From Desulfarculaceae bacterium (GTDB lineage: Bacteria > Desulfobacterota > Desulfarculia > Desulfarculales > Desulfarculaceae): 64,000 nucleotides of DNA. The notes under the pieces were generated by a model. That model worked only from the letters and a program-made list of their open reading frames with translations. It had not been told where the DNA came from and ran no database searches. The DNA lies in contig JAHLKT010000004.1 of NCBI GenBank assembly GCA_020444545.1, positions 434,001 to 498,000 on the forward strand, written 5' to 3'. Every line of letters starts with the position of its first letter. Position 1 is the first letter of the stretch. This document shows positions 6,313-34,945 of the stretch, in pieces. The position numbers and the translations under genes were made by a program.

Positions 6313-7488
6313 ATGGGGCGGCCCATGGACGCATCCAAGGAGATAAATCGCCTGCTGGACGGTTTCGCCGCCCTGCCCGAGCAGAGCTTGGCCCGCCTGG
6401 AAGAAGCCAAGGAGGCGGGCGTCAAGGTGGCGGGGGTGTACTGCATCTTCGCCCCCTTGGAGCTGATCCGGGCGGCCGGGGCCCTGCCTGTGGGCCTGTG
6501 CGGCAAGCGCCAGGAGCCCATCGCCGCGGCCGAGGCCGAGCTGCCCGCCAACCTGTGCCCCTTGGTCAAATCCTCCTACGGCTACGCCCTTACCAATACT
6601 TGCCCCTTTTTCGCCGCCTCGGACGTGGTCTTGGGCGAGACCACCTGCGACGGCAAGAAGAAGATGTACGAGGCCATGGAAAAGCTCCGGCCGGTGCATC
6701 TGATGCACCTGCCCCACACCGCCGGGCTGCCTCACGCCCTGGCCTATTGGCGGGCGGAGATCGACCGGCTCACGGATTTTTTGCAGGAGCTGACCGGCCA
6801 GGAGATAACCCCCGAGGCCCTGCGCGCGGAGATAGCGCTACAAAACCGGGCGCGGCGGCTGTTGGTGGAGCTGCACCGGGTCAACGCCGCCTCGAACCGC
6901 CCGGCCATCAGCGGCGCGGCCATGCTGCCCATCCTGGAGAGCAAGAACTTCTGGCCCGACCTGGCCGACTACGCCGCGCGCCTGGAGGCGCTCATCGAAG
7001 CGGTGGAGGCCTACAACACCGCCGGCCTGGGCGACGGCCCCCGGCCGCCCCGGGTGCTCTTGACCGGCACGCCCATCGGCAAGGGCTCGGACAAGGTGCT
7101 CAAGCTCATCGAGGAGTCCGGCGGCGTGGTGATCGCCATGGAGAACTGCACCGGCCTCAAGAGCGCCTGGACCCAGGTGGACGAGACCGCCGCCGACCCC
7201 CTGGAGGCCTTGGCCCGGCGCTATTTGACCCTACCCTGCTCCTGCATGACCCCCAACCAGGGGCGCTACGCGCTCTTGGAGGAGTTGGTTCCCCTGTTCG
7301 GAGCGGACGGCGTGGTGGACCTGAGCTGGCACGCCTGCCACACCTACATCATCGAATCCAATCCCCTGGGCCGCCACCTGGAGGAGCGCCTCTCCCTGCC
7401 GGTGACCCGCCTGACCACCGATTACGGCGAAAGCGACCTGGAGACCCTGCGCACCCGCGTGGAGGCCTTCCTGGAAATGCTTTCCTAA
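6313..7488 (+). CDS. 2-hydroxyacyl-CoA dehydratase / double-cubane cluster protein family (HgdB/BcrB-like)
   Basis: 391 aa, the length of a single HgdB/BcrB/FldC-type subunit. Family cysteines are conserved: Cys82 (NLCPLVKS), Cys112 in ETTCDGKKKMYE (109-120), Cys279 (MENCTG), Cys309/Cys311 (PCSCMTPN) and Cys342 (WHACHTY). Known members bind [4Fe-4S] or double-cubane [8Fe-9S] clusters and need an ATP-driven activator (HgdC type) to inject electrons; they are oxygen-sensitive. The partner subunit and activator are both absent nearby. A stand-alone member fits the double-cubane cluster protein branch at least as well as a true dehydratase. The start may instead be ATG 6325 (MDASKEIN); neither has a strong ribosome site. 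First gene of a plus-strand operon with an SsuABC-like importer, 37 bases upstream of the binding protein. Confidence 0.8.
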   Translation: MGRPMDASKEINRLLDGFAALPEQSLARLEEAKEAGVKVAGVYCIFAPLELIRAAGALPVGLCGKRQEPIAAAEAELPANLCPLVKSSYGYALTNTCPFFAASDVVLGETTCDGKKKMYEAMEKLRPVHLMHLPHTAGLPHALAYWRAEIDRLTDFLQELTGQEITPEALRAEIALQNRARRLLVELHRVNAASNRPAISGAAMLPILESKNFWPDLADYAARLEALIEAVEAYNTAGLGDGPRPPRVLLTGTPIGKGSDKVLKLIEESGGVVIAMENCTGLKSAWTQVDETAADPLEALARRYLTLPCSCMTPNQGRYALLEELVPLFGADGVVDLSWHACHTYIIESNPLGRHLEERLSLPVTRLTTDYGESDLETLRTRVEAFLEMLS

Positions 7489-10830: not shown

Positions 10831-12120
10831 CTACATCCTCTCAAAAATGGTGAAGGTGCAGGTGCCGCCGGTGCCCCCCAGGTTGTGCGTCGCCCCCACC
10901 CTCAGATCCGGGATGGGCACTTGGCGGGGGCCCGCCTCGCCGCGCAGCTGCTGCCAAATCTCCACCATCTGGGAAACGCCGGTGGCTCCCACCGGGTGCC
11001 CCTTGCACTTGAGTCCGCCGGAGGTGTTGATGGGCATGTCTCCCCGTAGGCTGGTCCGGCCCTCGGCCGTGGCTCGGCAGCCGTGTCCCGGCGGGAAAAA
11101 CCCCAGGTCCTCCAGATGGATGAGCTCCGCGATGGAAAAGCAGTCGTGGACCTCGCATAGCTGGATATCCTTGGGCTCCAGGCGGGACATGGCATAGGCC
11201 TCCGCCGCCGCGGCCCGGGTGGCCTCGAAAGAGGCCAGGTCCTTTTTGGCGTTCAGGCCGTGCCCGCTTCCCTGGCCCAAGCCCGCCACCAGCAAGGGGT
11301 GGTCGGAGAACTTTTTGGCCATGTCGGCCGAGGCCAAGAGCACGCAGGAGGCTCCATCGCTGATCGGGCAGCAATCAAAAAGGTGCAGAGGCCAAGCCAC
11401 CATGGGGTTGGCGCGGGGATCGCCCAGAAAGGCCTTTTCATCGGCCCATTCCGGCTGCGGCACGCCGGTGGCCTGGGCCTTTTCGCGCTTTTTCCCCATG
11501 ATGTCGGCGATGGTGTCGCGGTACTGGGCCTTGGGATTGAGCTTGCCGTTTTTATGGCTCTTGATGGTCACATCCATCAAGTGGGAGCGCGTGGCTCCGA
11601 ATTTATGAAAATAGGCCGAGGCGGTGACCCCGAACACGCCGGGGAAGGTGAAGCCGACCTGCCCCTCGCAGGGCATGGTGGCCAAGGCCAGCCCTTCGGC
11701 CACCTCTTCGGTGCTCCGCCGAGACATGACCTCCACCCCCCCCACCAGCACCAAATCATAGAGCCCGGCGGCTATGGCCAGAACGCCTTCGCGGAAGGCC
11801 AGGGCGCTGCTGGCGCAGGCCCCCTCGGTGCGGGTGGCCGGCTTGGGGACCAGCCCCACCGCGTCCGCAATTATGGGCCCCCAATGAGCCTGGTGCACAA
11901 AGAAGTCGTTGCTGAAGTTGCCCAGGTAGAGGGCCTGGATGGCGTCGGGGTCGAAAGGCTTGTCCACCGAGGCCAGCATGGACCCGAATGCCTCCACGAA
12001 CAGATCCTTGCTGTCCTTTTCGGGAAACGCCCCGAAGCGGGACATGCCGGCCCCCACCATGGCCACCTGCCGCGCCAATCCAGGTTTTTTGGGCATACTC
12101 TCTATCCTTTTGTCAGACAT
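10831..12120 (-). CDS. Thiolase-domain protein (SCP2/BbsB-like), partner of the DUF35 protein
   Basis: 429 aa thiolase-fold protein. The nucleophile-position cysteine is Cys102 in EGACASSA. Further conserved elements are HDCFSIAE and the C-terminal GGLKCKGHPVGATG loop, the variant seen in the SCP2-like group that needs a DUF35 partner. Expected activity is CoA-dependent cleavage or condensation of a 3-oxoacyl-CoA. The ATG at 12120 overlaps the end of the ligase gene by 8 bases (ATGTCTGA), so translation is probably coupled. Longer in-frame extensions upstream are coding for the ligase and are rejected. The DUF35 gene starts 3 bases after its stop. Confidence 0.85.
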   Translation of the reverse strand: MSDKRIESMPKKPGLARQVAMVGAGMSRFGAFPEKDSKDLFVEAFGSMLASVDKPFDPDAIQALYLGNFSNDFFVHQAHWGPIIADAVGLVPKPATRTEGACASSALAFREGVLAIAAGLYDLVLVGGVEVMSRRSTEEVAEGLALATMPCEGQVGFTFPGVFGVTASAYFHKFGATRSHLMDVTIKSHKNGKLNPKAQYRDTIADIMGKKREKAQATGVPQPEWADEKAFLGDPRANPMVAWPLHLFDCCPISDGASCVLLASADMAKKFSDHPLLVAGLGQGSGHGLNAKKDLASFEATRAAAAEAYAMSRLEPKDIQLCEVHDCFSIAELIHLEDLGFFPPGHGCRATAEGRTSLRGDMPINTSGGLKCKGHPVGATGVSQMVEIWQQLRGEAGPRQVPIPDLRVGATHNLGGTGGTCTFTIFERM

Positions 12121-13672
12121 GGCGGCCGCGCCCGTCCCAGTACTTGGCGCGCAGCTCCCGCTTGAGGATCTTGCCGTAGTTGTTTTTAGGAATGTCATCC
12201 ACGAAGTCCACGGACTTGGGCTTCTTGTAGGAGGCAATGTTGTCCTTGCAAAAGGCGATCAGCTCCTCTTGGCTGGCCTGCCGGCCGGGGAACAAGGCCA
12301 CGACTGCCTTCATGGCCTCGCCCCACTGGGGATCGGGCACTCCGATGACCGCCGCCTCCCGCACGCAAGGGTGGCGCAGCAGCACCTCTTCCACCTCGCG
12401 GGGATAGATGTTCTCGCCCCCGCTGATGATCATGTCCTTGGAGCGGTCCAGTATGAACAGGTAGCCGTTTTCGTCCAGGGAGCCCACGTCCCCGGTATGC
12501 AGCCAGCCGTTGCGCAGGGTCTCGGCCGTGGCCCTGGGGTTGCGCCAATAGCCCTTCATGACCAGATCCGATCGGGTGACGATCTCCCCGGGCTCTCCCG
12601 GGGGCAGGGGCCGGTCGTTCTGGTCCACCACGGCCACCTCCACGTTGGTGCGGGCGATGCCCGCCGAGGCCAGGCGGCGCAGTTGCTCCTCGCTTCCCTG
12701 AGCGCAGTGGTCCCGCTTGGGCAGGTAGGTGATGGTCATGGGCGCTTCGCCCTGGCCGTAGAGCTGCACCAAACAGGGGCCCATGACCTCGATGGCCTTT
12801 TGCAGGTCCGCCACGTACATGGGCGCGCCGCCGTAGTTGAGGCAGGTCATGGAGCTGTGATCGCATTTGGCGGCGGCGGGGCTCTCCACCATGCGCTTGA
12901 CCATGGTGGGCGCCGCGAACATGTTGGTGATGCGTTCCCGTTCGATGGTGCGGAAGACCAGCTCCGGGTTGAAGGTCTTGCTCTCCAAAATGACGTTGGC
13001 CGCTCCCTTGGCGATATTGGGCAGCGCGTACATGCCGCTGCCGTGCGACAAGGGCGCGGCGTGCAGCACCGCGTCCTCCGGCCCCAGGGGCGACATGTCC
13101 GCGTAGAAGTTCATGATCATGGCCAGCAGGTTGCGGTGGGTCAGGGCGGCTCCCTTGGGCTGGCCCGTGGTGCCCGAGGTGTAGAAGAGCCAGGCCAACT
13201 GATCAGGGTCCACCAGGGCGTCTTCGCGTTCCGGCGAAGCGGCGGCCAGAAGCTCTTCGTAATCTCTCAGCTCACCCGCGCCCCCCTCCAGGGTGATGAA
13301 ATGCTCCACGTCAGGGACTTCCCGGCGCACGTCCATTATCGGCTGGTTGAATTCCGGCGAAAGCAGCACGGCGCGAGCCTGGGAGTGGTCGATGATGAAG
13401 GCGCACTCCTTGGGATGCAGGCGGAAGTTAATGGGCACCGCGCCGCAGCCGGCCTTGAAACAGGCGAACATGGCCTCGAGGGTTTGGGGGTAGTTGTATT
13501 GCAGCAAGGCCACGTTGTCGCCGGGGCGCACCCCCAGGCCCAAAAGCGCATTGGCCAGGCGGTTGGCCCTTTGGTTGAACTGGGCAAAGGTTGCCTTTTT
13601 GCCGCCGTGCACCAGCGCCGTCCGGCGTGGGAAGGTGCGGGCGGCCTTGCTTAACAGGGACCCGATATTCAT
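12113..13672 (-). CDS. AMP-forming acyl-CoA ligase (fatty-acyl-CoA synthase type)
   Basis: 519 aa ANL-superfamily ligase. The phosphate-binding motif FYTSGTTGQPKG is at 163-174, the adenylate motif LYGQGEAPMT lies in the middle, GWLHTGDVG and ISGGENIYPREVEE mark the hinge, and the C-terminal KNNYGKILKREL has the catalytic lysine. The adenylate motif reads YGQGE rather than the usual YGxTE/YGSTE, as in many medium-chain or aryl ligases. ATG start with GGGGA 6 bases upstream. It heads a ligase-thiolase-DUF35 operon, so the acid it activates is probably shortened or built by the thiolase complex. Substrate unknown. Confidence 0.87.
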   Translation of the reverse strand: MNIGSLLSKAARTFPRRTALVHGGKKATFAQFNQRANRLANALLGLGVRPGDNVALLQYNYPQTLEAMFACFKAGCGAVPINFRLHPKECAFIIDHSQARAVLLSPEFNQPIMDVRREVPDVEHFITLEGGAGELRDYEELLAAASPEREDALVDPDQLAWLFYTSGTTGQPKGAALTHRNLLAMIMNFYADMSPLGPEDAVLHAAPLSHGSGMYALPNIAKGAANVILESKTFNPELVFRTIERERITNMFAAPTMVKRMVESPAAAKCDHSSMTCLNYGGAPMYVADLQKAIEVMGPCLVQLYGQGEAPMTITYLPKRDHCAQGSEEQLRRLASAGIARTNVEVAVVDQNDRPLPPGEPGEIVTRSDLVMKGYWRNPRATAETLRNGWLHTGDVGSLDENGYLFILDRSKDMIISGGENIYPREVEEVLLRHPCVREAAVIGVPDPQWGEAMKAVVALFPGRQASQEELIAFCKDNIASYKKPKSVDFVDDIPKNNYGKILKRELRAKYWDGRGRHV

Positions 13673-13703
13673 TGGCTATCCCCAAACAGTGCGAATTGTT
13701 CCC

Positions 13704-13722
13704 ACGGCTGGTGCCGAGCCGT
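13704..13722. promoter_or_regulatory. Inverted repeat upstream of the ligase-thiolase-DUF35 operon
   Basis: ACGGCT (13704-13709) and AGCCGT (13717-13722) flank a 7-base spacer, 32 bases upstream of the ligase ATG. It could be an operator or a 5'-UTR hairpin; no clear promoter boxes accompany it. Confidence 0.3.
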
Positions 13723-13832
13723 CGCTCAACCACTGCTCGTGACGAGTGGCCGCCGGGCCACCTGGGCTCTGGCGCCGGGGAAAGGCAAGCCGGACCAGGT
13801 TGCCGCGCCCCTATCTCCGGCATGAGAAATGA

Positions 13833-13861
13833 GGGGCACGGCCGTCATGCGGCCATGCCCC
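13833..13861 (-). terminator. Stem-loop terminator after the alpha/beta hydrolase gene
   Basis: GGGGCA/TGCCCC (6 bp) and GGCCG/CGGCC (5 bp) stack across one C-A mismatch around the loop TCATG. It starts 7 bases beyond the minus-strand stop at 13868. On the minus strand it is followed by TCATTTCTC. Confidence 0.6.
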
Positions 13862-13867
13862 CGGTAT

Positions 13868-14683
13868 CTAGATGGAGCCGACAAAGGAGCGCAGGTCGGC
13901 GTTGTAGCGCTCCGGGGTCTCCCAGAATGGAGCGTGGCCGGCCTCGGGCACGGCCGCGAGCCGCGCCTTTTCGATCACCTTGTCGTGATGCTCGGCCATG
14001 GACATCAAGACCAGCGCGTCGGCCTCCCCTTGGCTGATCAAAGCCGGCTTGGAGAGCTTGGCCAGCACGTCGTCGTTGTCCTGGCTGCGGCCAAAGGCCC
14101 CGCCCCGCACGTAGGGAGGGACCACGCTGTTGTATCCCAGGAAGAAGTAGAACTCTTCCAGGGGGAGCTCCCGATAGAACCACAACCGTATGAGCTGGCC
14201 CAGCGCGTCGGTGCTTTCCGCCGCGACGTCGGAAAAGAGACCTCCCGCCATGGCGATGAACTCCGGCGAGAGGAAGGGATAGATCGAATCGCCTATCTTG
14301 GAGATGGCTCCGATGAAGTTGATCCCGGCGATGTCCTTGTCGCCGTAGTGGCGAAGATAATCGCTGATTATCAAGCCGGCGTAGGACCAGCCGATCAACA
14401 CCGGCTGGTCGAGCCCCAGCTGGGTGATGACGCCGTTGACGTCATCCGCCCAGAGCTGGGTGTCGCCGTAGGCGTCCTGGGGCTTTTCGGACAGGCCGTG
14501 GCCTCGGGCGTCAATGGCGACCAGGCGGAAATCGTCCGCCAGGTCGGACTCCATTTGCTTCTTCCAGCAAAGGCCGCACTGGGAAAGCCCATGAATAAAC
14601 AGAAGGGGCCGTCCCTGCTTGTTGCCGGTTTCCCTGACATGGAGCTTGGTGCCCCCACCACCCGTAATAGTGTGCTCCTCCAT
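13868..14683 (-). CDS. Alpha/beta-hydrolase fold protein
   Basis: 271 aa, complete alpha/beta hydrolase. The oxyanion HG motif is FIHGLS (29-34). The nucleophile Ser100 sits in the elbow GWSYAG (98-103). His250 (EAGHAPFWETPE) is the catalytic histidine, and Asp222 (QGEADALV) is the likely acid. The sequence resembles esterases, C-C bond hydrolases and non-heme peroxidases of the same fold, so the substrate cannot be assigned. ATG start with GGAGG 8 bases upstream. It is monocistronic and divergent from the sensor kinase pair; repeated TCACCC/GGGTGA elements in between suggest control by that two-component system. Confidence 0.85.
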   Translation of the reverse strand: MEEHTITGGGGTKLHVRETGNKQGRPLLFIHGLSQCGLCWKKQMESDLADDFRLVAIDARGHGLSEKPQDAYGDTQLWADDVNGVITQLGLDQPVLIGWSYAGLIISDYLRHYGDKDIAGINFIGAISKIGDSIYPFLSPEFIAMAGGLFSDVAAESTDALGQLIRLWFYRELPLEEFYFFLGYNSVVPPYVRGGAFGRSQDNDDVLAKLSKPALISQGEADALVLMSMAEHHDKVIEKARLAAVPEAGHAPFWETPERYNADLRSFVGSI

Positions 14684-14711
14684 TGCCCGAACCTCCTTTG
14701 TGGAAGAAAAA

Positions 14712-14960
14712 TCACCCGGTCAAATCATCTGGCCGTTCGGCGCGCGCCGCCGCGCCGCCTGTTACCCCGGGGCGTAAAGCCCAAAAACTGGCTGCAAATC
14801 TCGCGGCCGGCAAGCGCGCCCGCGCCCCATACACTCCTTGCACGGCCGGGCCGGGCAAGCCGGAGGGTGCGCCATGGCATACGCCTTAAGTCTTGTACAA
14901 CTTGGCGCTTAAAGAGGTAAATCACCCAAAAGGGTGAAAAGCCTTAACCTGTATGGGTGA
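14712..14960. promoter_or_regulatory. Cluster of TCACCC/GGGTGA half-sites between hydrolase and sensor kinase
   Basis: Half-sites lie at 14712-14717 (TCACCC), as a perfect inverted repeat at 14922-14937 (TCACCC-AAAA-GGGTGA) and at 14955-14960 (GGGTGA). The single site nearest the hydrolase and the paired sites nearest the kinase flank the divergent control region. A likely reading is a binding array for the adjacent NarL-type response regulator, but that is inference. Confidence 0.5.
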
Positions 14961-14963
14961 TGC

Positions 14964-14977
14964 ATCCAAAATTGGAT
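14964..14977. promoter_or_regulatory. Inverted repeat next to the half-site cluster
   Basis: ATCCAA-AA-TTGGAT is a perfect 6-bp inverted repeat immediately before the first possible start codon of the kinase gene. Its position among the TCACCC elements makes it part of the control region, which in turn makes translation from 14979 doubtful. Confidence 0.4.
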
Positions 14978-14978
14978 T

Positions 14979-16844
14979 GTGCTAGCTTGGAATCCTGCCG
15001 GGCCGGCTCGGATAACCGGCAGGCCGCCCCGAGGGTTGCAAGGTTTTTTCCATGCGTTGGCTAACGCGTTATCCTGGTGGGCCAAACTTCCCGGCATCTT
15101 CTTGCTCCGCCCCACGGGGGGCTCCACTTTCGGGAATGCGGCGGCCCGCGGCCGAATATGGACCTTCAGCAAATTGCCACACACCAAATACGACCCCCGG
15201 GAGATTTCCCATCGCACTCTGGTCGACGTACCGGTGGCCAGAGAGCAGCTCGTTCTGAGCACCCTTCTGAGCGGGAATAGAGAAAAGCTTTTACAAGAGC
15301 TGCGGCGGCGGCTGGAAAAGTTTCTGCCTTCGGATTACTACTCCATGATTTTGTTCGACCCCAAGGGCCGCGAACGCACGGAGCGGTACGTTGACGCCTT
15401 TTTGATGGCCTTGAGTGGAGACCTGGAATACTTCATCAAGGACCAGCAAATGATCGGCTACAAAAGGGCCATTGAAGGCTACCCCTTGGAGGCCGTCCTC
15501 AGCTTCGCCATTACCTTTAAAAACGTTGTCCAGGATTTCATAAGCCAGCACAATGCGCGGGCCGGGGAGGATGACCGGCGCATTTCAATGGACGAGGTGT
15601 TTTACCTGCACAGCATTCTAGACCATTCATATTATCTGCTGAGCCGCTCCTACCTAATCACCCGCGACGAAATCATAGATGAACGGCGCAGGCAATTGCA
15701 TGACCTGCAAGCCTTTGCCGGCGACGTGGTCCCCGTCCTGGAAGACGAGATGCTCTGGAATCCGCTGTTAGACGGGGTGGAGAACATCTTCCATCTCAAG
15801 GCCCGGCTGATCAGGGAGCCGGGGGGCTCCGAATTATTTACGGGTCCCCGGGTTTCCAAAGCTCTCGGCTCGCTATCCGAGAAGCATCCCGCCCGGGAGA
15901 TACTGGAGCTGGCCCGCAAGAGCAACGAGCCCATGGCCCAGACTCCGGAGGGGGAGATTCAGCCTTTCGGTGACCAGCCGGACCAGAAAGATTTTTTGTA
16001 CATATGCCTTCCCTTGGCCAGCCGCCCCAGGCAGGGAAAGGTCTTTCTGTTGCTCCACGATCAAGGGAGGCTCTTCCCCTTTGAACGCTTCGACAAGAAT
16101 CTGTTGTCCCAACTGGTCTACTTCGCCGGTTCGGTGCTGGTCAACTGCGGCATGGTTTCGGAGCTGGCGGAAAAGCGGGAATACCTGTCCAACTTGACCG
16201 GCATCCTGTTTGACATTCAGGAGAAGGAACGCAAGCGCATCGCGGCGGACATTCACGATGTAATCACCCAGGCCCTCAGCGGCATCGGGTTCAAGCTGAT
16301 CCTGTGCCAGGAGTTGCTGGAGAAGCAGCCGCGGCGCCTGGAAGAGGAACTGAACCGCCTGGTCGACAACGTGAACGAGGCGCTGCACCATTCCCGCCAT
16401 ATCGTCAGCGATCTGCGCCCCACCATCCTGGACAACCTCGGCCTGGTGGCCGCGCTGAAAAAAATAGCCAATGCCTTTGAAGAGAACAGCGGGGTGGAGA
16501 TAGAGTTCATTTCGCCGCCGCACCTCGAGCTGGCTCCCGGCGCGAGCATCGCCATCTTCCGCATACTGCAAGAGTCGTTGCACAACATAAGAAAGCACGC
16601 CGCGGCCAGTCACGTTTGGGCCAAGCTGGAGTTGCCGCCGGATGGCAGGCTGGAGATGACCATCGAGGACGACGGCAAAGGGTTCGAGCCCCGCCAGCGC
16701 ACCCAAGGCTTGGGGTTGATGCTCATCCGGGAAAGAGCCGAGAATCTGGGCGGGCAGCTGCTCCTTAGATCATCCCCCGGAGACGGAACCACGGTGAAGG
16801 TCATGCTGCCTTTGGCTGGAGAAAAGCGCAATGGGCCCAATTAG
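14979..16844 (+). CDS. Soluble sensor histidine kinase, NarX/DegS type (HisKA_3)
   Basis: Up to 621 aa. The dimerisation/phospho-acceptor domain HisKA_3 starts near 412 (EKERKRIAADIHDVITQ, phospho-acceptor His426). A HATPase_c domain follows with DDGKGFEPRQ and GLGLMLIRERAENLGG. Upstream are an all-helical N-terminal region (about 95-240) of unknown type and a probable GAF-like sensor domain (about 245-390). No membrane segments are visible, so it should sense a cytoplasmic signal. The start is uncertain: the open frame begins with GTG at 14979 inside an apparent operator region without a ribosome site. The first 65-90 codons look non-coding, and TTG 15174 or another codon near there may be the true start. 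Its last 14 bases overlap the response regulator gene. Confidence 0.85.
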   Translation: MLAWNPAGPARITGRPPRGLQGFFHALANALSWWAKLPGIFLLRPTGGSTFGNAAARGRIWTFSKLPHTKYDPREISHRTLVDVPVAREQLVLSTLLSGNREKLLQELRRRLEKFLPSDYYSMILFDPKGRERTERYVDAFLMALSGDLEYFIKDQQMIGYKRAIEGYPLEAVLSFAITFKNVVQDFISQHNARAGEDDRRISMDEVFYLHSILDHSYYLLSRSYLITRDEIIDERRRQLHDLQAFAGDVVPVLEDEMLWNPLLDGVENIFHLKARLIREPGGSELFTGPRVSKALGSLSEKHPAREILELARKSNEPMAQTPEGEIQPFGDQPDQKDFLYICLPLASRPRQGKVFLLLHDQGRLFPFERFDKNLLSQLVYFAGSVLVNCGMVSELAEKREYLSNLTGILFDIQEKERKRIAADIHDVITQALSGIGFKLILCQELLEKQPRRLEEELNRLVDNVNEALHHSRHIVSDLRPTILDNLGLVAALKKIANAFEENSGVEIEFISPPHLELAPGASIAIFRILQESLHNIRKHAAASHVWAKLELPPDGRLEMTIEDDGKGFEPRQRTQGLGLMLIRERAENLGGQLLLRSSPGDGTTVKVMLPLAGEKRNGPN

Positions 16845-17490
16845 AGTTCTGGTAGTCGACGACCACGGCATCGTACGCGAGGGACTGAAAGCGCTCCTGG
16901 AGCTGGAGCCGGAGATTTGCGTGGTGGAGGAATCCAACAGCGCCCTGGACGCGCTTGCGCAAGTCGAGCGCTGCGCCCCGGATCTGGTGCTGATGGACCT
17001 GAAGATGCCGGGGCTATCGGGCCTGGAGGGCTGCCGCCTTATCAAGCAAAGCCATCCCAAGGTCAAAGTGGTGCTGCTGACCAATTATGAGGATGAGGAG
17101 TTCGTCCACGAGGCGGTCAACGTCAAGGCCGATGGCTACGTTCTCAAGAACGTAAAAAAGGGAGACCTGGCCCGCATCATCAAAACCGTCATGGAGGGGG
17201 GAGCCTATCTGGACCCCATGGTGACCCGCAAGGCCTTGGGCCATTTCACAGCCCAGGCGGACGGCGAAACGGCCCCCTCCAGGCATCCCCGCTTGACTCC
17301 ACGGGAGCTGCAGATACTGCTGGAGGTGTTCGCCGGGGCAAGCAACAAGGAAATCGCCAACAACAGCAACCTTTCCTTGGACACCGTCAAAACCCACCTG
17401 AAGAACATATACGCCAAGCTGGGGGTGCGCAGCCGCGCCCAGGCCATGAAAGCGGCCATTGAGCAGAAGCTGGTGACCTTGCCGATTTAG
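16831..17490 (+). CDS. NarL/FixJ-family response regulator
   Basis: 219 aa. The receiver domain (1-120) has acidic residues Asp10-Asp11, phospho-acceptor Asp56 (LVLMDLKMPG), Thr84 and Lys106. The LuxR-type helix-turn-helix (about 150-210) reads LTPRELQILLEVFAGASNKEIA and LSLDTVKTHLKNIYAKLGV. The ATG lies inside the kinase gene (14-base overlap), so the two are co-translated as a cognate pair. Likely targets are its own divergent control region (14684-14978) and the alpha/beta hydrolase. Confidence 0.92.
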   Translation: MGPIRVLVVDDHGIVREGLKALLELEPEICVVEESNSALDALAQVERCAPDLVLMDLKMPGLSGLEGCRLIKQSHPKVKVVLLTNYEDEEFVHEAVNVKADGYVLKNVKKGDLARIIKTVMEGGAYLDPMVTRKALGHFTAQADGETAPSRHPRLTPRELQILLEVFAGASNKEIANNSNLSLDTVKTHLKNIYAKLGVRSRAQAMKAAIEQKLVTLPI

Positions 17491-33802: not shown

Positions 33803-34945
33803 CTAGGAGGCCAGGATACGGTTGACCAGGGTGGTGCGGTTGTTGACGCCCACCTTCTCGTAGATGTTCTGCAAGTGCTTTTTGACCGTCACCTCGCTGA
33901 CGAACAGCTTCTCGGCGATCTCGGCGTTTTTCAGCCCCAGGAAGACTAGCTCCACCACCTCTATCTCCCTACGGCTCAGGTGAAGCTCTTTTTGCAGATG
34001 ATCTGGATCGATCTTGGCCGCGAGCTTTTCTTCCGCTGACTGTTCTTCCTCTATGGAGACCATGAGCAGACGGGAGTCTTCCCAGCCCAACCTTTGATCC
34101 AGGAGCCTGATGGTCACGGAGAAGTTGCTCCCGTCGCACCCCTGAATGGTGCTCTGCTTGACCGGCGGCGCGCCGCCTTCCCGGCGGTTGTCCATTATGG
34201 GCTTGATCTCTCGGCAGACCTTTAGCAGTTGGGGCGGGAGTTGCAGGTTGCGCCTGAAGACCGGCCGCGACAGGGTCAGGTTGCCCACCGCCTCTTCCGC
34301 CTTTTCGTTGCTGTAGACGATTTGCAGGCTTTCATCCAGCAGAAGCATTCCGATGGAGGACTGCTTCTCGATGTATTCCAGCACGGTGCCCTTGAGCTTA
34401 ATCTTGCGGCGCAGGTTGTTGTGGGCCAGGGCGTGGGCCAGATAGGGAACGATGGTCCTGACCGTGAGGATTTCCTTGCTGGTGAAGCTGTTGGAGCGGC
34501 GGGGCCTGGTCAGGACAACCCGGCCGAACAATTCTCTTTCCGCGACCAAGTTGACTACGAGCTTGTGGTGGATCTTCTGCGGCCTGAGGAAGTCGTTGTA
34601 ATATTCGGTGTCCAAGTACGAATCATAACTGAACACTTTTTCTCGGCTGTCAGAGGGATTGGTAATAATCAGGTTTTTGGTGAGATTCAGGGGATCGAAC
34701 ATGTAAAAACGATTTTTATAGTATTCGCAATAATCCTTATCGAGGTTTTTCAGGGTTATGTGGGTGTACCGCCCGTTGCCGTCCGGCAGGAAGAATATGG
34801 CGCCTTGCGAACGGATGGTGCGAAAGAGGGCGTCGAGGGTTTTCTCTCTTACCAGCCTTGAATCCAAAGATTCATTCGACGTACTGATCACGTCCAATAC
34901 GTCGGTCAAAATCGGGACAGGTAAACTATCCATTTGTTGCAACAT
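33803..34945 (-). CDS. LuxR-family transcriptional regulator
   Basis: 380 aa. The N-terminal two thirds look like a ligand- or GAF/PAS-type sensor (LDALFRTIRSQGAIFFLPDG, then IGMLLLDESLQIVYSNEKAEEAVG, a PAS-like segment near 205). The C-terminal LuxR helix-turn-helix spans about 315-377 (LSRREIEVVELVFLGLKNAEIAEKL and VSEVTVKKHLQNIYEKVGV). There is no receiver domain and no membrane segment, so it probably senses a small molecule directly. It is transcribed in the same direction as operon H but ends in its own terminator; control of operon H is inferred from adjacency and the promoter geometry. ATG 34945, or ATG 34933 four codons later. Confidence 0.85.
   Translation of the reverse strand: MLQQMDSLPVPILTDVLDVISTSNESLDSRLVREKTLDALFRTIRSQGAIFFLPDGNGRYTHITLKNLDKDYCEYYKNRFYMFDPLNLTKNLIITNPSDSREKVFSYDSYLDTEYYNDFLRPQKIHHKLVVNLVAERELFGRVVLTRPRRSNSFTSKEILTVRTIVPYLAHALAHNNLRRKIKLKGTVLEYIEKQSSIGMLLLDESLQIVYSNEKAEEAVGNLTLSRPVFRRNLQLPPQLLKVCREIKPIMDNRREGGAPPVKQSTIQGCDGSNFSVTIRLLDQRLGWEDSRLLMVSIEEEQSAEEKLAAKIDPDHLQKELHLSRREIEVVELVFLGLKNAEIAEKLFVSEVTVKKHLQNIYEKVGVNNRTTLVNRILAS

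Follow-up and report, generated by a model that had tools for sequence, protein, structure and literature searches.

A Two-Component System Divergent from a Hydrolase Gene

The window analyzed here, a 64-kb stretch of the 4.38-Mb genome of a Desulfarculaceae bacterium (G000), contains an alpha/beta hydrolase gene (13868-14683, minus strand; Pfam Abhydrolase_6/1) that diverges from the gene of a histidine kinase with HisKA_3 and HATPase_c domains (15174-16844, plus strand). The latter is followed by the gene of a NarL/FixJ-type response regulator (16831-17490, plus strand), which has a receiver and a GerE domain (Response_reg, 97.3 bits; GerE, 66 bits) and the usual phosphorylation residues (D10, D11, D56, T84, and K106), and which falls below the NCBIfam cut-offs (300) of its best models, MctR and MadR (165.7 and 157.4 bits). 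The list of open reading frames puts the kinase start at GTG 14979, beside a putative promoter; TTG 15174 is the more likely start, judging by the other starts in frame and by the ortholog in G005, and the intergenic region would then have about 490 bases. A sequence-only reading had described a divergent region of 295 bases (14684-14978) with repeated TCACCC/GGGTGA elements between the hydrolase and the two-component system. The divergence of hydrolase and kinase stands, but the end of the region at 14978 depends on GTG 14979.

The genes beyond the hydrolase are on the same strand and encode an acyl-CoA ligase (12113-13672) and, farther on, a thiolase-like protein (10831-12237). The hydrolase may be transcribed alone, since it is followed by a terminator-like hairpin (13832-13862, minus strand), and a similar one, read by eye, occupies the same place in G005. 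The terminator scan is not significant by itself, with one hairpin found against a mean of 1.8 in shuffled sequences. Elsewhere in the window are a second GerE-domain protein of 380 amino acids without a Pfam receiver match (33803-34945, minus strand) and a double-cubane-cluster-containing anaerobic reductase (6313-7485, plus strand), which scores higher than its NCBIfam cut-off and has genes of an NMT1-like binding protein and of an ABC transporter after it.

The N-terminal half of the kinase (15174-16145, about 310 amino acids) has no credible match in Pfam: at E values up to 1, the window's protein has one match below the cut-off (E = 0.097), and its two orthologs have none. It appears to be an undescribed sensor region. 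Matches to it are found in 5 of 395 genomes of the phylum, namely its own, G005, and three at 27-28% identity, and one distant relative carries a GAF domain. The stretches examined upstream of these distant relatives (L053-L055) contain no TCACCC/GGGTGA pair.

The locus has orthologs in two other genomes: G005, of the same genus as G000, and G053, of another family. Some similarity to the kinase is found in 29 of 60 relatives; besides G000, the only full-length ones among the matches listed are in G053 (69% identity) and G005 (64%), the others listed covering only the catalytic core at no more than 53% identity. A scan of genome contigs led again to this pair of loci, on JAHJTB010000072.1 and JAIPDO010000010.1. 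For the regulator, searched in 98 relatives, identities are 100% (itself), 83% (G053), and 74% (G005), the next best being 40%. The hydrolase, at E values up to 1e-20, is present in 3 of the 63 genomes of the class, again G000, G005, and G053; its orthologs are 66% and 63% identical to it, and in each of these genomes it is transcribed divergently from the kinase. Both proteins of the two-component system in G053 resemble those of the window more (83% for the regulator and 68% for the kinase) than do their counterparts in the same-genus G005 (73% and 63%).

Two Inverted Repeats in the Intergenic Region

The hexamer TCACCC is found at 14712-14717 and 14922-14927, and its complement GGGTGA at 14932-14937 and 14955-14960. 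The two central copies form an exact 16-mer palindrome, TCACCCAAAAGGGTGA (14922-14937), and a further inverted repeat, ATCCAAAATTGGAT, is exact at 14964-14977. The elements reported in the sequence-only reading are thus all exactly where it had placed them. They also cluster beyond chance, as neither four hexamers nor the full 16-bp palindrome was reached within 14684-14978 in dinucleotide shuffles of the region (0/2,000 for each). The hexamer alone is frequent in this GC-rich DNA, with 60 copies in the window against 44 ± 7 in shuffled sequences, and 60 copies were reached by 2 of 100 shuffles. Given the region shuffles and the conservation of the sites in two other genomes, the probability that a common hexamer clustered here by chance is negligible. 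The perfect palindrome TCACCC-N4-GGGTGA, for which the same reading had proposed a genome count, occurs once in the window and at two places in the 4.38-Mb genome; the other one is probably coding, as it sits within long open frames on both strands.

These elements can be resolved into two putative operator sites. Site 1 (14922-14937) is the perfect palindrome TCACCC-AAAA-GGGTGA, which extends to AAATCACCCAAAAGGGTGAAAA at 14919-14940. Site 2 (14945-14960) is an imperfect palindrome, TAACCT-GTAT-GGGTGA, the left arm of which had been overlooked, so that the GGGTGA at 14955 had been taken for a lone half-site when it is in fact a right arm. Site 1 is kept in both orthologous loci, where its left arm is TCCCCC and its right arm is unchanged. 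The orthologs have a site 2 of better symmetry (TCACCT-TAAA-GGGTGA and TCACCC-CAAA-GGGTGT) than that of the window. The distance between the two sites is 23 bp in the window and 24 bp in G005 and G053. The 6-4-6 inverted repeat with its 4-bp spacer is conserved among orthologs, the right arm being the best kept and the left arms degenerate.

When the three intergenic regions are aligned, conservation has the same focus (positions in window coordinates). Between 14914 and 14960, 35 of 47 aligned columns are invariant. The invariant fraction is 9/20 in 14893-14913 and 3/30 in 14860-14892 on the left, and 12/28 in 14961-14988, 21/108 in 14989-15100, and 12/44 in 15101-15173 on the right. We also built a matrix from six sites, all belonging to G005 and G053 (four of them from the two near-identical G005 copies) and none to the window, and scanned both strands of the window with it. 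The segment 14919-14940 ranks first, with 29.9 bits against 14.5 for the next, whereas site 2 (14942-14963) comes only seventh, with 11.4 bits, and is thus weak in the window. The same scan gives no site copy ahead of the window's ligase (12113-13672).

The two outer elements, which had been proposed as members of the same array, behave differently. Both are present, but neither is conserved: TCACCC is absent from the intergenic DNA near the hydrolase start in G005 and G053, and the palindrome at 14964-14977 has no conserved counterpart in the orthologous loci. Both are probably incidental as judged from these comparisons, and neither was retained as part of the operator; the palindrome probably sits in the spacer between a -35 and a -10 element. 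On this comparative evidence, three of the four hexamers matter.

A 6-bp stem with a 4-base loop, followed by TTT on the minus strand, could also be an RNA hairpin (attenuator or terminator) instead of a DNA operator. The TCCCCC left arm of G005 and G053 breaks such a stem, though, and the unchanged right arm does not compensate for it. Moreover, the site is absent from the list of the terminator scan, and the sole Rfam match in 13600-15300 lies elsewhere and below the gathering score. Hence, a role at the RNA level is very improbable.

Specificity of the Tandem Pair

Among the 63 genomes of the class, three contain the tandem pattern, G000 and G053 once each and G005 twice (the reversed control gives a single match). 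When up to three mismatches are allowed, extended site 1 is found at four places in these three genomes, the same as the tandem copies, and its reversed control at none. Within G000, neither the exact tandem pattern nor site 1 with up to three mismatches gives a second tandem copy. A wider regulon in G000 was sought with a relaxed single-site pattern allowing one mismatch, and was set aside because the 76 places found, against 38 for the reversed control, are too noisy. The tandem pair, the kinase, the regulator, and the hydrolase therefore all occur in the same three genomes; with three genomes only, this distribution cannot separate the regulator from the kinase or the hydrolase as the partner of the sites.

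The perfect palindrome alone has a different distribution. It is present at 51 places in 25 of the 63 genomes (the reversed control in 3 genomes), and among these 25 only G000 and G053 carry this regulator. Thirteen of the 51 places, chosen mostly for A/T-rich spacers, were inspected with crude open-reading-frame calls (at least 90 amino acids), of which six overlap such calls and seven lie outside them. The ten proteins scanned around four of these seven have no kinase or regulator domain. We conclude that the tandem arrangement with its flanks is specific to the system and that the single perfect palindrome is not. G031, which belongs to a different family of this class, has perfect palindromes outside the crude calls at L120:2982 and L129:2978, with additional GGGTGAT half-sites after them; the former is upstream of MlaE-like ABC transporter genes.

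The occurrence of the single palindrome in many genomes without this regulator could indicate that a different factor (an unlinked repressor or one of the other GerE proteins) occupies the sites while the adjacent regulator acts elsewhere. There are 15 places coding for GerE domains in G000, fourteen besides this regulator, and an IclR-like gene (named by eye from its translation) is found nearby in G005. This explanation is nevertheless unlikely, because the pair co-occurs with the kinase, regulator, and hydrolase and because its architecture suits dimers of NarL-type regulators. The operator pair is well supported, and it is most likely, from its sequence and distribution, that it belongs to the adjacent two-component system.

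A Candidate Two-Way Switch and Its Relatives

Which promoters the pair might serve can be considered from the conserved boxes around it. On the right, a putative extended -10 element of the kinase-regulator promoter, TGTGCTAGC (14978-14986, plus strand), was identified by eye, with TRTGCTA conserved in all three regions. On the left, a putative -35 element, TTTACC (14916-14921, minus strand), adjoins site 1 and is separated by an 18-bp spacer from a putative -10 element, TACAAG (14892-14897, minus strand), with TTGTAYRA conserved in all three. If the transcripts start where these boxes predict, the center of site 2 would lie about 40 bp upstream of the kinase transcript start and that of site 1 about 44 bp before the leftward start. 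A consensus scan of 13660-15240 returned no sigma-70 promoter and matched the proposed boxes of neither direction. The sequence GAGGTAAA is invariant in the three orthologous regions; alternatively to a -35 element, the box at 14916-14921 may be part of a third half-site, AGGTAA (14915-14920).

The third half-site leads to a narrower reading, in which the sites serve only the kinase-regulator promoter by autoregulation, GAGGTAAA is a further half-site, and the hydrolase has a promoter nearer to its own start. AGGTAA does resemble GGGTGA, a consensus leftward promoter was not found, and the predicted leftward start would give the hydrolase transcript a long leader (in the window about 200 bases, in G053 almost 400). 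Against this, the hydrolase remains divergent beside the sites in all three genomes, and G005 provides a second copy of the pair in another context. This copy lies 1.3 kb from the first, on the 3′ side of the hydrolase, and precedes a leftward TRAP-transporter run composed of dctP and dctM (identified with NCBIfam), a small permease (by eye), an SDR-type gene, and an acyl-CoA ligase that is 82% identical to the ligase at 12113-13672 in the window. (No close relative of dctP is found in the window's genome, the best being 28-29% identical.) The 48-bp cores of the two copies are identical at 46 of 48 positions. Their left 40 bases are identical at 22/40, a value equaled by 4 of 20,000 random pairs, and retain GGTAAA, while their right 40 bases are identical at only 12/40. 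We take this pattern to link the left flank to a leftward promoter, and the TGCTA box of the right flank to the kinase promoter alone. Autoregulation alone is, as a consequence, a rather doubtful though still credible account of the locus.

We consider it probable, given the layout of sites and genes, that the adjacent NarL-type regulator binds both sites and activates from this shared control region both its own operon and the divergent hydrolase. The kinase would sense a cue and phosphorylate the regulator, dimers of which would then bind site 1 strongly and site 2 weakly, probably together; the 23-bp separation corresponds to about two helical turns. Site 2, at the -35 position, would activate the kinase-regulator operon (positive autoregulation), and site 1, beside the leftward -35 element, would activate the hydrolase. 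In G005, the second copy would put the TRAP-transporter/SDR/acyl-CoA-ligase run under the same switch. The sites, their conservation, their co-occurrence with the system, and the second copy are observed here, and from them we infer the binder, its dependence on phosphorylation, the promoters, and the sign of regulation. The sequence-only reading had already suggested an array for the adjacent regulator acting both ways. The conserved tandem palindromes, their 6-4-6 architecture, the BldM-like half-sites, the co-occurrence with the system, and the second copy in G005 argue for its core. The array itself reduces to two dimer sites instead of scattered half-sites, as the elements at 14712 and 14964-14977 drop out; binding and control of the hydrolase are predictions, and the perfect palindrome alone also occurs in genomes of the class that lack this regulator.

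The system is an ordinary kind of genetic switch, with parallels among several known regulators. BldM of Streptomyces is also a NarL/FixJ-type protein. It is described as an orphan response regulator, atypical in kind, that acts in development, and the site of its homodimer (Group I), footprinted with DNase I on two promoters, is 5′-TCACcCgnncGgGTGA-3′ (PMC4125116). Site 1 shares with it the 16-bp palindromic form, the hexamers, and the 4-bp spacing, and matches every upper-case letter of TCACcCgnncGgGTGA, though not the g and c printed in lower case in the spacer. The differences are a spacer of AAAA instead of gnnc, the presence of two tandem sites, and the TCCCCC left arm of the orthologs. 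Furthermore, the regulator studied here is neither orphan nor atypical, since it is encoded alongside a kinase and has the usual receiver residues. This likeness suggests that TCACCC-N4-GGGTGA is used by response regulators of distant phyla.

The genes around the pair resemble those of TodST, StySR, and TdiSR, where a kinase and a NarL/FixJ-family regulator lie beside catabolic genes (for aromatic compounds in those cases), although the kinase here has a different, unannotated N-terminal half. TodT/StyR-like regulators may recognize ATAAACN4GTTTAT, and TdiR switches on its own operon as well as catabolic promoters (PMC5874301), which is a precedent for one regulator acting in both ways. StyR-P works from about -40 (PMC2442086), a position similar to that predicted for site 2. 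The inverted repeats are N4-spaced in both cases, but the operator is ATAAACN4GTTTAT or GGTGTTCGCACC there and TCACCC-N4-GGGTGA here, so that the locus would not belong to that type of regulon as there described.

A compact catabolic switch that can be transferred, made of an undescribed sensor half, a BldM-type 16-bp site, and a divergent promoter with two sites, a copy of which can place additional transport and CoA-ligase genes under the switch as in G005, is a more tentative proposal, and a doubtful one. Its regulator would differ in kind from the developmental BldM of Streptomyces and yet share its 16-bp site. Horizontal transfer of the module may explain why the regulator and kinase of G053 are closer to those of the window than the G005 ones are. 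We found no literature on Desulfarculaceae two-component systems with their promoters in open-access searches; the pair gives such a system a specific candidate operator in a Desulfarculaceae-type genome, and its tie to the hydrolase, acyl-CoA-ligase, and TRAP genes opens a route toward the substrate.

The architecture also has a parallel in ComA of Bacillus subtilis, the dimer of which binds inverted hexamers with an optimal spacer of 4 (PMC4797271). Both cases have a 6-4-6 inverted repeat, a dimer of a NarL-like regulator, and a second site near the first, whereas ComA has a TTGCGG hexamer, a direct-repeat second site, and a role in the quorum response. In Desulfovibrio vulgaris, the mapped sites of response regulators are mostly inverted repeats of 4-6 bp that are 3-8 bp apart (PMC3333781).
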